Below are positions 6,856 through 29,328 of a DNA stretch of 45,038 nucleotides, piece by piece. The notes under the pieces are model-generated. The model saw only the letters and a list, made by a program, of their open reading frames with translations. It ran no database searches and was not told the DNA's origin. The stretch spans positions 1 to 45,038 of the forward strand of contig NZ_QLNP01000083.1 in assembly GCF_003261175.1 (NCBI RefSeq). Reading direction: 5' to 3'. The position numbers were made by a program, and so were the translations under genes. Source of the stretch: Arthrobacter globiformis. GTDB taxonomy: Bacteria > Actinomycetota > Actinomycetes > Actinomycetales > Micrococcaceae. Each line of letters opens with the position of its first letter. Position 1 is the first letter of the stretch.

Positions 6856-6906
6856 GCTACGGGGAGACGCAACCAGCTGATGGAACCTGTCGCAGGATCG
6901 ACGCAC

Positions 6907-8622
6907 ATGGAAACGCCGGATATTGCCGGCGCCTATCCACGCCTCGGCCGAGCCCAGATCGAGTTGTTGGGCCGCGCCGGCACCAGCCGGGCTACCGCGG
7001 CCGGAGAAGTCCTCATCCAGGAGGGGACGGTTGGGGCTGATTTCTTCGTCGTACTGCAGGGCACGGTAGTGGTCGTCGAGGGGCTACACGCCGGCGACGG
7101 TAGACAGCCTGCGGAGCTTGGCCCCGGCACCCGGATCCTCGAAGTTCACGGTCCCGGACGCTTCCTCGGGGAACTGGGCCTGGTCGAGGGGCAACCGGCC
7201 TTTGTCAGCGCTGTGTCCGCCGAGGCGGGTGAAGTGCTTCAAATCAGCGGGGACGACCTGCGTCGTGCCGTGCTGACGGACGCCGCGGTGGGCGAGACCA
7301 TCCTGCGGGCATTCCTTCAGCGCCGGATCCTGCTGATCAGTGCGGGCGCGGGCACCCGCATCGTTGGATCCCGCTTCAGCCGTGACACCCTTCGGCTCCT
7401 GGAATTTGCAGCCGCCAACCGCCTGCCTCACCGCCTGGTTGATCTGGAGGATGATAAGCAGGCGCAGGGCATCCTGGACAGGGCCGGGATACTCGCGGAT
7501 GAGCTGCCGGTGGTGGTGCTAAACGCCTCGCAGGTCCTCAAGAACCCGTCAAACGCAGACCTGGCCCTTGCCATGGGCCTACGCGCGGTGAAAGAGCACT
7601 CGGCTTCATACGATCTCATGGTGATCGGAGCCGGCCCCGCCGGCCTGGCGGCAGCCGTCTACGCGGCGTCGGACGGGTTGTCGGTCGTCCTTAAGGAGGG
7701 CTTCGCGATAGGTGGGCAGGCCGGCACGTCGCCGCGGATCGAGAACTTTCTCGGCTTTCCCGCCGGAATCTCGGGCGGTGAACTCACTGAAAGAGCAATC
7801 ATTCAGGCCCGCAAGTTCAGAGTCCAGATCAACGTCGCCTGCCGGGCACGCACCATCGAGTTGAAAGACGGCCAGATCCGAGCCGAGTTCCACGAGAGCG
7901 GCCCTGCCTCCTCACGGGCAGCGCTGCTCGCAACCGGTGTTCACTACCGCCGGCTGCCAGTCCCCGGGCTGGAGAAATTCGAGGGGATCAGTGTCTTCTA
8001 CGCCGCCACTGTCCATGAAGCCAGGCTCTGCGGAATGCAGCCGGTGGCCGTCGTCGGGGGTGGAAACTCCGCAGCACAGGCCGCCCTTTTCCTGGCCGGA
8101 ATAGGAGCACCAGTGCGGCTGGTGGTGCGCGGGGCAGACCTCCGCGCGGACATGTCCGGGTACCTCGCGGAACGAATCGAAGAACACCCGGGCATAGAGG
8201 TGCTGCTGGGGGCCAACATCGTCGGCGTGGACGGTTCAGGCGCCCTTGAACGGATCGTCGTCCAGTTGGCGGCCACAGGCGAACAGCGCATCTTCGACTC
8301 CCGATATCTCTTCATTTTCATCGGGGCCAAGCCGCACACAGAATGGCTGCAGGGCACGCTCGCCTTGGATGGCCACGGATTTGTTCTCACCGGGGCTGAC
8401 CTCCAGGACCTTCCTCCTGAGTTCAGCCATCTGGGCCGCAGCCGGCTGCCCTTGGAAACCAGCATCCCGGGGATGTTCGCTGCCGGTGATGTTCGGCATG
8501 GGTCGGTGAAACGCGTAACGGCTGCCGCCGGTGAAGGCTCAACAGCCGTGGCAATGATCCACGAGCACCTGCGCCTCCTTCGGGATGGACCGGCCATCGC
8601 GCGTCAGGGCAAAGGACATTGA
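6907..8622 (+). CDS. Cyclic-nucleotide-binding/thioredoxin-like/flavin oxidoreductase fusion (TrxR-like)
   Basis: A 571-residue three-part protein. Residues about 10-140 form a cNMP-binding (CRP-type) beta-roll (GEVLIQEGTVGADFFVVLQG). About 141-225 look like a thioredoxin/glutaredoxin fold without an active CxxC. About 235-560 form a thioredoxin-reductase-like flavoprotein with the FAD motif GAGPAG (241-246), IENFLGFP, and the NAD(P)H motif GGGNSA (384-389). Where true TrxR has CxxC the sequence reads YAATVHEARLC (365-375), so only one Cys remains and dithiol chemistry is unlikely. The start at 6907 has AGGA at a good distance; an in-frame ATG at 6880 would add nine residues. A ligand-gated NAD(P)H oxidoreductase is inferred; the substrate is unknown. 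Confidence 0.88.
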   Translation: METPDIAGAYPRLGRAQIELLGRAGTSRATAAGEVLIQEGTVGADFFVVLQGTVVVVEGLHAGDGRQPAELGPGTRILEVHGPGRFLGELGLVEGQPAFVSAVSAEAGEVLQISGDDLRRAVLTDAAVGETILRAFLQRRILLISAGAGTRIVGSRFSRDTLRLLEFAAANRLPHRLVDLEDDKQAQGILDRAGILADELPVVVLNASQVLKNPSNADLALAMGLRAVKEHSASYDLMVIGAGPAGLAAAVYAASDGLSVVLKEGFAIGGQAGTSPRIENFLGFPAGISGGELTERAIIQARKFRVQINVACRARTIELKDGQIRAEFHESGPASSRAALLATGVHYRRLPVPGLEKFEGISVFYAATVHEARLCGMQPVAVVGGGNSAAQAALFLAGIGAPVRLVVRGADLRADMSGYLAERIEEHPGIEVLLGANIVGVDGSGALERIVVQLAATGEQRIFDSRYLFIFIGAKPHTEWLQGTLALDGHGFVLTGADLQDLPPEFSHLGRSRLPLETSIPGMFAAGDVRHGSVKRVTAAAGEGSTAVAMIHEHLRLLRDGPAIARQGKGH

Positions 8623-18717: not shown

Positions 18718-19040
18718 CGGCCTATTGGATGCCCGGGAACGTATCCTGCGCCGGCTTTGACAGTCTAAGAAGGCTTCTGCCTGTCCCTACCCCCACGATC
18801 CCGCGCTGGACCGCTGCATGTTTCGCAGCCCGAGTCCCGTTGCAGGGTGAGGGGGTGTTGTCAGCGGGACCGATCAGGCGGCAGGCCATCGCTGATACAG
18901 GCAGGACGACAAGTCCTTCGTAACGTGGGTTCCGACAGCTTCCGCCCCTTGACCAGCCAGCCAGCCTAGCTCAGTGGACTGCGATCACATCCAGCGCGAG
19001 CCGTCTCGCGAGCATTCCGGAGGCGCCCAGGCGCAGCGAA
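18718..19040. other. Non-coding or decayed stretch
   Basis: Between ltrA and the fuconate dehydratase remnant I see no gene with a ribosome-binding site or family motif. Short open frames exist but have no recognisable content. It is probably decayed coding DNA, as are the sequences from 19406 to 19605, where an open stretch (TDTWLAGNCDGEMDGNVKLP) looks protein-like but is unassigned. Confidence 0.45.
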
Positions 19041-19405
19041 ATGACTCCCGAAGAGCTGCTCAGCGTCGCCGATTTCACCCACATCCGCGACGCCCTCAGC
19101 CCCGAGCAAGCACTGGAGATCCTGCCTGCCGGCCAGCGCGGGAAGGGCGATGATTGCCCCGCTCAAAGCCGACGGTTCCCGGCGTACACCACCTCACCCG
19201 GATGGCCAGGGTACAGCGACGAGAAGCTGGTGCGTCTGAGTAAAGAGGCGGCGGCCGAGGGCTTTTCCATGATGAAGCTCAGCACTGGGAGGTGTCCGAG
19301 GCCATCAGCTGGGTTAATGACATTCTGGTCCACGCCGCCGGCCGGAACTTCACCGTCGTTAGCGGCACCGAATTAACCCGGCTGGTCATGGTCAGCGGGC
19401 TGTAA
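19041..19405 (+). pseudogene. Remnant of L-fuconate dehydratase (enolase superfamily) with internal deletion
   Basis: Residues read from 19041 (MTPEELLSVADFTHIRDALS) and around 19185-19280 (PAYTTSPGWPGYSDEKLVRL, then EGFSMMKL) match L-fuconate dehydratase closely. Directly after MMKL the frame changes, and 19280-19318 reads QHWEVSEAISWVN, which in the intact enzyme lies some 30 residues further on, after the metal-binding strand. The catalytic KxK region and first metal ligand are therefore deleted. From about 19319 to the stop at 19403-19405 the sequence (DILVHAAGRNFTVVSGTELT) no longer matches anything I know. N- and C-terminal domains are missing. It cannot be functional. Confidence 0.72.
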
Positions 19406-19605
19406 GACCGCTCGGTCCGCGGGACGGGGCCCACGCTGCGCGCGCCTAGGACAGACACCTGGCTGGCCGGCAACTGCGACGGGGAAATGGACGGCAACGT
19501 GAAGCTCCCCGACAACGCTCCCATGCTCAATGACGCTGGCAAGCCCTCGTGTGGCTCAGGGGCCCTGCACATGGAACACCGTCCGACTCCGAAGTCAGCA
19601 TTATA

Positions 19606-19650
19606 AAAGGAGGCCGACGACGACACGCAGTGTCGCCGTCGGCCTCCTTT
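19606..19650 (-). terminator. Strong rho-independent terminator for the small repeat-protein gene
   Basis: A long hairpin: arm AAAGGAGGCCGACG (19606-19619) pairs perfectly with CGTCGGCCTCCTTT (19637-19650), and inside it CGACAC pairs with GTGTCG around a GCA loop, with one A/C mismatch between the two helices. Read on the minus strand it ends in TTTTATAA, 40 bp after the stop of the minus-strand gene at 19690. It may also stop rightward transcription. Confidence 0.85.
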
Positions 19651-19689
19651 CTACGCCGCACGGTGCCATCCACCAAAGACGCTGGGGCT

Positions 19690-19965
19690 TTAGGCTGCAG
19701 TCGGAAGCGTTACGTAGCTGCCCTCGACGAGGCCGGCGGCAACTGCGGGAGCGCCGGCCACCGCGACATAGCTTCCACGCGTGACGGGAGACATGTTTCG
19801 GCTGCCGGGGACGGTGACATAGGTGCCTTCGACACCGGCCGGGGCGCTGCCACCGGGCAGAGTTACATAGCTGCCGCCGCGCAGCGCGGGGCCAACGACA
19901 GTGGTGCCGGCAGCGGTCTTAGGGGCGGAATGGGTCGTTGCGGGGCGTTCGGCGAGCAAAGTCAT
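19690..19965 (-). CDS. Small four-repeat protein (GSYVTLPG repeats), function unknown
   Basis: A 91-residue protein I cannot assign to a characterised family. It starts MTLLAERPATTHSAPKTAAG and then carries four copies of a nine-residue unit: GGSYVTLPG (30-38), EGTYVTVPG (46-54), RGSYVAVAG (63-71) and EGSYVTLPT (81-89), spaced 16, 17 and 18 residues apart with Ala/Pro/Gly-rich linkers. There is no Cys, signal peptide or membrane segment. Evidence that it is real: GAGGAG five bases before the ATG, a strong terminator 40 bp after the stop, and repeat units conserved in protein but varied in DNA. Tyr and Thr in each unit are possible modification or cross-link points. Beta-strand stacking or a peptide-precursor role are guesses. 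Confidence 0.78.
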   Translation of the reverse strand: MTLLAERPATTHSAPKTAAGTTVVGPALRGGSYVTLPGGSAPAGVEGTYVTVPGSRNMSPVTRGSYVAVAGAPAVAAGLVEGSYVTLPTAA

Positions 19966-20377
19966 GGGTACTCCTCGGGGTTCAGGATCAGGGCCAGTTC
20001 AGGTTCCAGTGCCGCTCAAGCAGAAGGGCGTTGCGGGTTGTGTCGCCTGCCCTGCCGGCCCGGGGATGTTCACCGGTGCGGTACTCGAGGGCTACTCTGG
20101 CCTACATCCAACTCTATCGCCTTATTGATAGCTACTCAAAATAACGTGGGTAGACTCACGCTGTGGTGGCAGGCCTGCTGGGGCAGCCAGGGGGTGAGCT
20201 CGTGCCTTCGGCGAGGAGCCGTCCGACTAGTTGCAGTGGTCGGCCAGTGCGACGACGAAGTGCCTGAACAGGATGCTCGGTTCGGGGTTACATGCCTTGG
20301 GAAAGGAAGTCATCGGACGGGTCTCCAAAGGAGGACTCAGAGAAGCTTCGCGGCTTCTGTCGCCCTTACTTGCCCCG
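19966..20377. other. Intergenic region upstream of the repeat-protein gene
   Basis: This 412-bp stretch should hold the promoter of the minus-strand repeat-protein gene. The AT-richest part (about 20100-20150) contains CTATC and GATAG as an inverted pair eight bases apart (20108-20126 area). On the minus strand TTGAGT with GATAGA 15 bases downstream is a poor promoter candidate. The right half (20160-20377) shows no gene or family motif that I can support. Confidence 0.4.
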
Positions 20378-26791: not shown

Positions 26792-27619
26792 TCAACCGAG
26801 GTCTCCGCCTGCCACCGGGAGGATGCTGCCCGTCACATACGACGCCTCGTCGGATGCCATGAACACGATCGGCGCAGCCTGTTCGTCCAGGGTGCCGTAT
26901 CGCTTCAAAAGGGAGGACTCCACGGTCTGATCCACGATGGTCTGGTACCACGCCTTTTCGGCCGCCGACTGCGCTTCCGGTCCCCGCTTGACTTTTCTGG
27001 GCGGGGCTTCGGTGCCACCGGGGGCGGTAGCGACAACGCGGATACCGTGCGCGGCGACCTCCATGGCCAAGGACTGGGTAAGGGCGTTGACGCCACCCTT
27101 CGCCGCCGCGTAGGGGACGCGGTGCATCCCGCGCGTGGCGACTGAGGAGACGTTGACGATGGTGCCCGACCCCTGCTCGATCATTGCCGGAAGTACGGCG
27201 CGGCAGGACCACAGGGTCGGGAAGAGTGAACGGCGGATCTCCCGCTCGATCTTCTCCTCGTCGTACTCTTCGTAGGGGCGGGCCCAGATGGTTCCCCCAA
27301 CGTTGTTAACGAGAACGTCAACCATGCCGTGAAGATCCAGCGCCGCACTCACGGCCTGTTGTGCGCCCGTGAAGGTTTCCAGGTCCGCGGTCACGGCGAC
27401 GGCGGACCCTCCGGTTCCTGACCTCTTCGCGGCTTCCTGGATCTCCCGGGCGACCTCGTGAACGATGTCGGCGCGGTCCACAAGGACCACCGCGCCCCCT
27501 TCGGCCCCGATCCGCTCGGCGACCTTTTGGCCGATACCTTGGGCTGAACCCGTTACCACCGCCACCTTGCCGGCGAAGCGGCCGGGCGTGACGAACTGCC
27601 CAGCGTATGTCGTAACCAT
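26792..27619 (-). CDS. benD: Benzoate cis-diol dehydrogenase BenD
   Basis: A 275-residue short-chain dehydrogenase. The NAD motif TGSAQGIG is at 23-30, NNVGG at 105-109, and the catalytic Ser158/159-Tyr170-Lys174 set sits in NVSSVATRGMHRVPYAAAKG. It oxidises 1,6-dihydroxycyclohexa-2,4-diene-1-carboxylate to catechol with loss of CO2, the step after BenABC. The ATG overlaps the benC stop as ATGA, so it is translationally coupled. The order benA-B-C-D supports the specific assignment over a general reductase. Confidence 0.95.
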   Translation of the reverse strand: MVTTYAGQFVTPGRFAGKVAVVTGSAQGIGQKVAERIGAEGGAVVLVDRADIVHEVAREIQEAAKRSGTGGSAVAVTADLETFTGAQQAVSAALDLHGMVDVLVNNVGGTIWARPYEEYDEEKIEREIRRSLFPTLWSCRAVLPAMIEQGSGTIVNVSSVATRGMHRVPYAAAKGGVNALTQSLAMEVAAHGIRVVATAPGGTEAPPRKVKRGPEAQSAAEKAWYQTIVDQTVESSLLKRYGTLDEQAAPIVFMASDEASYVTGSILPVAGGDLG

Positions 27620-29193
27620 CAGGAGACTTTGTCTTTGGCGTCGATAGCGCGGGACATGGTGCGCTTGGCGTCACGGGCGTGAGCCATAATGACTTCCCGG
27701 GCGCGCTCCTTGTCCTGGTGCTCGAATGCGGCCACGACTTCGAGGTGGTCCTGGGCGACCCGCTCGAAGATTTCCGTGCCCTCCACGAAGGTAGCTGCCA
27801 TCTGGGCATGGACGTCGAGCAGTCGGTATGACTCCAGCAGCATCGGGTTGTCGCAGACCGTGAAGAGGTACTCGTGGAACTCTTCGTTGGTCCTTACGTA
27901 CTGTTCCGGGTCGAGGACACTGCCCAAGTCGACGGCGCGTGTGGTCGCTTCGGCGAGGCGGCGGAACTGGTTCAGCTGCTCCTCGCTAAGGCGGCCCACC
28001 ATGAGTTCGGTCACTGCAAGTTCAAGGCCCATGCGGGCCTCCAGATGGGCGAAGCTGTCCTCCTTGCGGAACTCAAGCCGGCCGGTCTCCAGTGAAGAAA
28101 TGGCCTGGACGCGACTGACCGCGTCTCCCTCGGTCTCCAGCTTCTCCACCGGGGCCGGCGCACCTGTCTCGGTGTCCCCTCCGGTGGTCTCCTTTGGGGC
28201 GAAACGCTCGAAATAGAAGTTGGCGGGCTGAATGTCCTCCGTGTCCAGCCACTTGGAAACGGCGTTCACCATGGGCGGCGGACCGCACAGGTAAATGTCG
28301 ACATCACCGTTGTTCAGGTGGGACGGCTGAATGATCTGTGTGACATATCCCGTGTGCGGGGCGGAGGTACCGGCCTCGGAGGCGATGTAGTCCCAGGTGA
28401 AACTCGGCAGCTTTGCTTCGTAAGTGCGCAGCCAGTCGAGCCCGACGATGTCGGCTTCACGGGAGACGCCGTAAATCAGGTGGACCGCGGTGGCCGGCGG
28501 GTTCTCGGAGAGCTTTTCCAGGATTGACAGGAGGGGCGCAAGCCCGGTGCCGCCTGCAAGCAAAAGGAGGGGCCGCTTTGGTTCGCGGAGGAAGAATGAG
28601 CCGTAGGGGCCGGTGAACTCGATAGTGTCCCCAACTGCGGCCCGGTCACGCAGGTACTCAGACATGGCGCCCTGCGGGGTTATGCGCACCATGAAGGACG
28701 CGTCCTCCACTTCGGGGCCGTTGCTGAAGGAGTACGAGCGCTCGGCGTCGGTGCCCGGGACCTTGATGTTGACGTATTGGCCGGGCAGGAACGCCAGAGC
28801 GTCCCGGTTCTGCACGTCCAGGGCGAAGGAGATTGTGGACTCCGAGTGCTTGTCGAGCTCTTTAAGGGTGGAGGTGAACGTGACTGCAGAGGTCTTGGCG
28901 GATTCCGAAGTGGCCGGGATCTGGATGGCGAGGTCCGTCTCCGGGACTGCCTGGCAGGTAAGCAGGTAGCCCTTTTCGAGCTCCTCCTCGGTCATCGCGT
29001 CGTCGATGAAGTCCCCGGGGTCGAAGGAGCCTGAGTCGCAAAAAGCCTTACACGTGCCGCAGGCACCGTCACGGCAGTCCGACGGGATGTTGATGCGCGC
29101 CTTGTACGCCGCGTCCATGACAGTCTCATAGTCACCGACCTTGATGACCTTGGTGACGCCATCCTCGAAGCTGAGGGCTACCTGATGGCCCAT
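27619..29193 (-). CDS. benC: Benzoate 1,2-dioxygenase reductase BenC with C-terminal FCD-like domain
   Basis: A 524-residue reductase. A [2Fe-2S] ferredoxin domain comes first with Cys at 40, 45, 48 and 80 (CRDGACGTCKAFC). The flavin domain (about 103-200) contains RSYSFSN, and the NAD domain (about 205-332) has LLAGGTGLAP and YLCGPPPM. Classic BenC ends here (about 340 residues). This one continues with a linker and a helical region (about 380-515) that resembles the FCD ligand-binding domain of GntR regulators, with His440, His483 and His505 at plausible metal positions. It passes electrons from NADH to BenAB. AGGAGG precedes the ATG at 29193 perfectly; the open frame above is not used. Confidence 0.94.
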   Translation of the reverse strand: MGHQVALSFEDGVTKVIKVGDYETVMDAAYKARINIPSDCRDGACGTCKAFCDSGSFDPGDFIDDAMTEEELEKGYLLTCQAVPETDLAIQIPATSESAKTSAVTFTSTLKELDKHSESTISFALDVQNRDALAFLPGQYVNIKVPGTDAERSYSFSNGPEVEDASFMVRITPQGAMSEYLRDRAAVGDTIEFTGPYGSFFLREPKRPLLLLAGGTGLAPLLSILEKLSENPPATAVHLIYGVSREADIVGLDWLRTYEAKLPSFTWDYIASEAGTSAPHTGYVTQIIQPSHLNNGDVDIYLCGPPPMVNAVSKWLDTEDIQPANFYFERFAPKETTGGDTETGAPAPVEKLETEGDAVSRVQAISSLETGRLEFRKEDSFAHLEARMGLELAVTELMVGRLSEEQLNQFRRLAEATTRAVDLGSVLDPEQYVRTNEEFHEYLFTVCDNPMLLESYRLLDVHAQMAATFVEGTEIFERVAQDHLEVVAAFEHQDKERAREVIMAHARDAKRTMSRAIDAKDKVS

Positions 29194-29328
29194 GTTTCCT
29201 CCTGTGGGGTCGCGCCTTCGCGACCCGAATAAGTAGTGCGTGCGAATGTTTCGTGTGAGCGGAGATGTAACGGCTGGATGCTCTTGAGCGTGACCGGCCG
29301 CGCAAACCACGGCCGACGCCGGATTCCG

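Follow-up and report, generated by a model that had tools for sequence, protein, structure and literature searches.

A small tyrosine-repeat protein of Arthrobacter probably controlled, together with the main catalase, by a peroxide-sensing Fur-family repressor

The window analysed here, a stretch of 45,038 nucleotides from Arthrobacter globiformis, contains a small gene that raises a simple question: why is a 91-residue protein built around four tyrosine repeats maintained, and under what control is it made? An earlier sequence-only reading described it as an orphan, alone in a decayed region, that fits no known family but is kept for a reason. The comparative analyses presented below suggest that the gene is probably a stand-alone unit which is derepressed, together with the catalase, by a peroxide-sensing Fur-family repressor (CatR, PerR-type). 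The features of the locus are as follows.

19690..19965, minus strand: reading frame of the small protein, 91 amino acids, ATG start, stop codon included
19855..19875, minus strand: module 1, GSYVTLP, residues 31-37; Tyr in 48 of 49 distinct proteins, Phe in one
19807..19827, minus strand: module 2, GTYVTVP, residues 47-53; Tyr in 48 of 49, Phe in one
19756..19776, minus strand: module 3, GSYVAVA, residues 64-70; Tyr in 49 of 49
19702..19722, minus strand: module 4, GSYVTLP, residues 82-88; Tyr in 46 of 49
19971..19976, minus strand: Shine-Dalgarno sequence GAGGAG, 5 nt 5' of the ATG, read from the sequence
19605..19651, minus strand: intrinsic terminator, a long G+C-rich hairpin and a T run
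19966..20104, minus strand: conserved 5' leader of about 140 nt, transcription start inferred
20111..20116, minus strand: -10-like TAGAGT, picked by eye, 17 nt from the -35-like element
20134-20139, minus strand: -35-like TTGAGT, picked by eye, inside the dyad
20121..20145, minus strand: 25-bp dyad GTTATTTTGAGTAGCTATCAATAAG, a putative CatR-type operator with three mismatches to the consensus

The reading frame, its four tyrosine repeats, the Shine-Dalgarno sequence and the strong terminator are borne out by the sequence and the translation, and the composition of the protein confirms that it has no Cys; Trp is also missing, and no signal peptide was recognised by eye. Four copies of the motif G[STN]YV[TA][VL] are found in the window protein, while even two were never reached in 20,000 shuffles of it. 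The repeats had been taken for nonapeptides, but are better described as G-x-Y-V-T units placed 16-18 residues apart. A GGAG is found at the Shine-Dalgarno place in nearly all aligned homologues. The terminator hairpin follows 13 of the 18 genes of the window's type (type A, see below), with a 14th copy truncated where the contig stops, and its sequence changes among these genes preserve pairing, while it is missing in four of the 18, including the nearest sister (L079). Matches of the hairpin to miRNA labels scored far below their cut-offs and are regarded as chance.

The small gene is flanked by genes with Pfam matches to LtrA and MDMPI_N, which does not fit the idea of a decayed region, although the approximately 0.9 kb to its left (18718-19605), where two reading frames were tried and gave no Pfam match, agrees with it. 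One of these two frames, at 19041-19376, may by eye be a remnant of a fuconate dehydratase. Two further genes of the window combine domains, as identified with Pfam. At 27619-29310 (minus strand), within what by eye is a benzoate dioxygenase gene cluster, a single reading frame joins a dioxygenase-reductase-type protein (Fer2, FAD-binding and NAD-binding domains) to a C-terminal FCD domain, which in GntR-type regulators binds the ligand, while at 6880-8622 (plus strand) a thioredoxin-reductase-like enzyme (Pyr_redox_2) carries an N-terminal cyclic-nucleotide-binding domain.

The protein proved to be no orphan. A profile of 14 rows matched 49 of 395 genomes of the window's taxonomic family at E 0.001, representing five of 32 genera, and the named records with relatives belong to Arthrobacter and Pseudarthrobacter. 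With the window protein alone as query, 25 of 295 family genomes were hit at E 0.01, many of these hits being weak and probably due to chance. Beyond the family the picture is sparse: at the level of the order four of 396 genomes matched, all from the window's own family, and at the level of the class three of 345. One of these three is the window's genome, and the other two hits, at E 0.0045 (with internal stops) and E 0.008, are taken as chance. Such searches score just the top candidates of a permissive initial screen and can therefore miss distant members. The profile matched 48 genomes besides that of the window, and 40 homologue loci were read from 38 of them (those left out being G078, G145, G211, G256, G271, G272, G327, G336, G348 and G350). 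Together with the window and nine further genes, minus one duplicate, these gave 49 distinct proteins; the repeat genes L151 and L154 were left out of this set as no fitting start was found.

Two main types are distinguished. Type A proteins are about 90 residues long, window-like and mostly end in SYVTLPxAA, while type B proteins, of about 80 residues, contain three YVT units before a final SYTR unit. In more distant forms the terminus is YTYxx, YTDRx or similar. In three longer variants (L092, L099 and L146) a fourth YVT unit stands in place of the terminal SYTR unit. The homologues thus preserve the repeats, with tyrosine in at least 46 of the 49 proteins at each of the four aligned columns, which give a better count than the module pattern, as the latter undercounts (exactly four copies in 39 of 49 proteins). 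The composition is also conserved, 45 of the 49 members being devoid of Cys and 48 of Trp. The median dN/dS (NG86) is 0.51 among type A genes (151 usable of 153 pairs) and 0.43 among type B genes (118 usable of 120 pairs), and the ratio is below 1 in every usable pair of both types, which argues that the frame is coding and under purifying selection. Together with the conserved repeats, this upholds the view that the gene is kept for a reason. That it fits no known family also stands: the window protein matched no family in Pfam or NCBIfam at the curated cut-offs, 14 family members gave scattered single matches only (best E 0.051 in Pfam and 0.11 in NCBIfam), and no convincing match was obtained in the PDB. 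The strings GSYVTLP, SYVTLPG and YVTLPG were not found in the paper text searched, and nothing relevant to small proteins in Arthrobacter peroxide or CatR literature was present among the matches listed.

The first indication of how the gene may be controlled comes from its upstream region. When the regions upstream of the gene in 13 type A and 15 type B loci are aligned, one common block emerges, a 25-bp dyad CTTATTnTGAnnnnnTCAnnATAAG (form 1), which in solo genes is located 156 to 230 bases 5' of the ATG and is followed in the homologues by a recurrent -10-like TAnnnT. In the window it overlaps the predicted promoter of the small gene. The window's genome (G000) contains form 1 three times when up to three mismatches are allowed, and does not contain the reversed pattern. 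The sole perfect copy (G000:C67:188966-188990) lies directly 5' of catR-katA, a Fur-family repressor gene followed by the gene of a 499-aa catalase; the second, with three mismatches, is that of the small gene; and the third (C29, three mismatches) is situated between an IdeR-type-looking gene and serC, both named by eye. Hence the small gene, earlier considered to be alone, has the same operator type as catR-katA. The regulator encoded beside the catalase gene is a FUR-domain protein that matches Fur and PerR chains in the PDB. Two of the three mismatches of the window operator fall in the inner right half-site, a deviation shared with the sister genome G366, and with three mismatches the window copy may be bound only weakly by CatR. 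The dyad is present at all 40 fetched homologue loci, as form 1 (up to five mismatches) in 39 of them and as form 2 (two mismatches) in the remaining locus (L106 of G159; L197). Six unrelated Fur loci (L206-L211) have at best 6-8 mismatches to form 1 and 7-10 to form 2.

In order to view the dyad independently of the small gene, form 1 was scanned for in 61 genomes of the genus, allowing up to two mismatches and using the reversed pattern as control. It is present in all 61 genomes, in one to three copies each and at 82 sites (summed forward counts), while the reversed control gave none. Of these, 76 were examined, all except three sites of G760, two of G773 and one of G392, and 57 precede catR and 19 the small gene, none being found elsewhere (the total combines sets of 48, with 38 before catR and ten before the repeat gene, 20, with 19 and one, and eight, all before the repeat gene). 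A KatA match follows catR at 56 of the 57 sites, many of the fetched stretches reaching only the KatA start; the exception (L138) has catR followed by a katG-looking gene, named by eye. At one site (L180), devoid of catR and katA matches, the repeat gene was recognised by reading the open reading frames. In the 12 genus genomes compared, there are as many repeat genes as dyad sites in excess of one: the small gene is present in seven (G177, G360, G392, G371, G320, G370 and G394), while the other five (G009, G289, G244, G208 and G227) have a single, catR-type site only. The window's genome is an exception, its site having three mismatches. In the profile search at least 20 genus genomes lacked the small gene, which makes it an accessory factor.

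A further arrangement was found in three other genera (g24, g31 and g32), where at nine loci the repeat gene is immediately preceded by a Fur-family gene of the same strand, with only about 100-160 bp between the two reading frames. The encoded paralogues are 42-51% identical to CatR, and the FUR domain (Pfam PF01475) was found on both of those tested. All nine loci have the form 2 dyad GTTGTTTTGAnnnnnTCAAAACAAC before the fur gene, with zero to three mismatches, and a katA match behind the paralogue was found at none of the nine. In addition, each of these nine genomes has a catR-like gene that is followed by a katA match. In seven of them the product of this additional gene shares 64-73% identity with CatR, and the dyad is of the CTTATT form with zero to four mismatches, while in the two g24 genomes (G247 and G024) the katA-adjacent catR-like gene is about 50% identical to CatR and has neither dyad (at best six mismatches to form 1 and nine to form 2). 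Of the paralogue's 30 best order-level relatives, 24 are followed by a katA match and six are not, and a repeat gene was not detected behind any of the 30 with a pattern that required three GxY units in a 900-bp stretch. A solo repeat gene is present in three g31 genomes (G248, G292 and G285), which contain catR and are devoid of the paralogue, apart from one weak extra match in G248, and their solo genes carry form 1 with one mismatch. The absence of katA at the nine loci, set against its presence behind 24 of the 30 relatives, suggests that the repeat gene may have taken the place of the catalase in some lineages. It thus appears, on the evidence of gene order and dyads, to occupy the catalase's position behind a duplicated repressor in some lineages and to use a CatR-type operator in others. 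The occurrence of CTTATT and GTTGTT dyads before two CatR-like repressors of the same genomes (catR-katA: L186-L191 and L194; paralogue: L196-L201 and L203-L205) offers a possible case of operator specificity in paralogous repressors. The regulator itself, CatR in certain lineages and its paralogue with a variant dyad elsewhere, has apparently been exchanged, a compact natural case of regulatory rewiring. In genus g24, at L107 (G024) and L105 (G247), the repeat gene is followed two genes further on, in the same direction, by a gene for a CueP-like copper-binding protein; the Pfam match (PF21172) was obtained with the L107 copy.

Taken together, these observations are best accommodated by a simple switch. 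Metal-loaded CatR would occupy the 25-bp dyad overlapping the promoter and thereby keep both catR-katA and the small gene off, while hydrogen peroxide would inactivate CatR, so that the catalase and the small protein would be made together; operator binding, induction and the role in peroxide defence are here all inferred. As the operator is common to the small gene and the main catalase, the small protein probably belongs to the peroxide defence of Arthrobacter-type soil bacteria. The usual features of antioxidant proteins are missing from it, as it has no Cys and few metal ligands. It is probably a flexible chain with four beta-prone Gly-x-Tyr-Val-Thr units. An AlphaFold2 model built on six rows has a mean pLDDT of 36 and is thus uninformative as to the fold, though it forms strands of at least three residues only at the four YVT units, so that scaffold strands at the repeats are conceivable. 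Acting beside the catalase, the four units might take up oxidising radicals or dock on KatA or another peroxide-damaged target. While the sequence evidence lends good support to the regulation, such a role as tyrosine radical sink or catalase partner, although preferred here, is a guess.

Other explanations were weighed against this reading. One is that the small protein is a modulator or feedback partner of CatR or its paralogue rather than a defence effector. The nine loci where it directly follows the CatR paralogue, without katA, show a layout common to regulators and their partners, but in genus g1 the small gene is located away from catR, and the five compared genomes with the catR-type site only show that CatR occurs without such a partner, so that this explanation is unlikely. 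A second candidate is the leader, which may be a functional RNA: it could even be the main product, a peroxide-induced regulatory RNA such as OxyS of Escherichia coli, with the reading frame secondary or both being functional. Among 17 type A loci the mean pairwise identity is 0.79 in the upstream 80 nt of the leader and 0.72 in its last 60 nt, compared to 0.71 in the coding sequence and 0.20-0.25 in distant flanks, and blocks of the leader are identical in all 16 aligned type A rows, while a related core recurs in type B. Consensus folds also suggest hairpins. However, the fold of the window leader is no better than those of shuffled sequences (z -1.09, 33 of 200 shuffles as good), no Rfam family reached its gathering score, the space between the reading frames behind the CatR paralogue is short, as noted above, and the dN/dS values reveal selection on the protein. 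Given its conservation, the leader may matter as RNA beside the protein, but the RNA as main product is a distinctly improbable alternative.

The control by CatR itself may also be questioned, as the link between CatR and the dyad is drawn from sequence and the third match in the window's genome lies between the IdeR-type-looking gene and serC; the dyad could then belong to another regulator, and the connection to CatR be a coincidence of promoter architecture. Yet every one of the 76 genus sites examined precedes catR or the small gene, and the dedicated pairs of Fur paralogue and repeat gene carry a variant dyad of their own, which makes such a coincidence very improbable. The chance is slimmest for a RiPP precursor or a surface protein with modified Tyr or Thr repeats, an idea prompted by the repetition of a short motif in a small protein. 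Type A loci have few neighbours in common, and although type B and Fur-linked loci do share neighbours, those common to several type B loci are aromatic-acid/aldolase-type enzymes and a MerR-type regulator (by eye) and not modification enzymes; no conserved modification enzyme was seen, mostly by eye, among the neighbours in the 40 loci and the window. The lack of a visible signal peptide also speaks against this idea, as does the lack of any match to the small protein in phage and plasmid collections.

Joint derepression with the catalase is therefore the explanation retained. A wider and more doubtful extension of it, conceivable at best in all its parts, is a peroxide-defence protein of a new kind, in which a flexible four-tyrosine chain made with the catalase would act via tyrosine chemistry or by tethering the four-subunit enzyme, with a leader RNA that may itself be active and a repressor that was duplicated and handed over in some lineages. 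If true, a repeat protein can be an output of the peroxide switch on its own. At the sites examined in the 61 genomes, the operator of the genus points to two targets only, catR-catalase and a hitherto unrecognised four-tyrosine protein. An unannotated small reading frame thereby becomes a testable peroxide-defence factor, and a clear operator is provided for a group of soil bacteria.

To our knowledge, the targets of Fur-type peroxide sensors comprise enzymes, metal transporters and storage proteins. The PerR regulon of Bacillus subtilis involves the same repressor family and logic, and CatR of the window's genome matches PerR (2fe3, E 5.2e-07), while that regulon is larger and has an operator sequence different from the dyad found here. 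The closest counterpart is the CatR regulon of Streptomyces (catA/katA1 and vtlA), with which the present system shares a peroxide-sensing Fur-family repressor and a monofunctional catalase (PMC5288332, PMC4530454). According to the available parts of these papers, CatR of S. coelicolor is characterised as a PerR orthologue that senses peroxide via bound iron and derepresses catA (PMC5288332), and KatA1 of S. natalensis was in 2015 called "the only known representative" of the CatR regulon (PMC4530454); vtlA, encoding an iron exporter, is placed in this regulon by a 2026 paper, in its available part, with reference to Kim 2021 (PMC13061897). Unlike in Streptomyces, where the targets named in these parts are the catalase and vtlA, the second target here is a tyrosine-repeat protein, a kind of protein of which no mention was found in the available portions of the CatR and Fur literature (PMC5288332, PMC4530454, PMC13061897, PMC2464607). 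A phylogeny of Fur proteins in Actinobacteria lists, in the part available, two Fur homologues in Arthrobacter aurescens TC1 and another two in Arthrobacter sp. FB24, and the same source, to the extent available, describes the FurA-katG operons of Mycobacterium and Streptomyces, which resemble the present system in that a Fur homologue controls a downstream catalase-peroxidase (PMC2464607). In contrast to these operons, it is a small repeat gene that stands behind the Fur paralogue at the nine loci described here.
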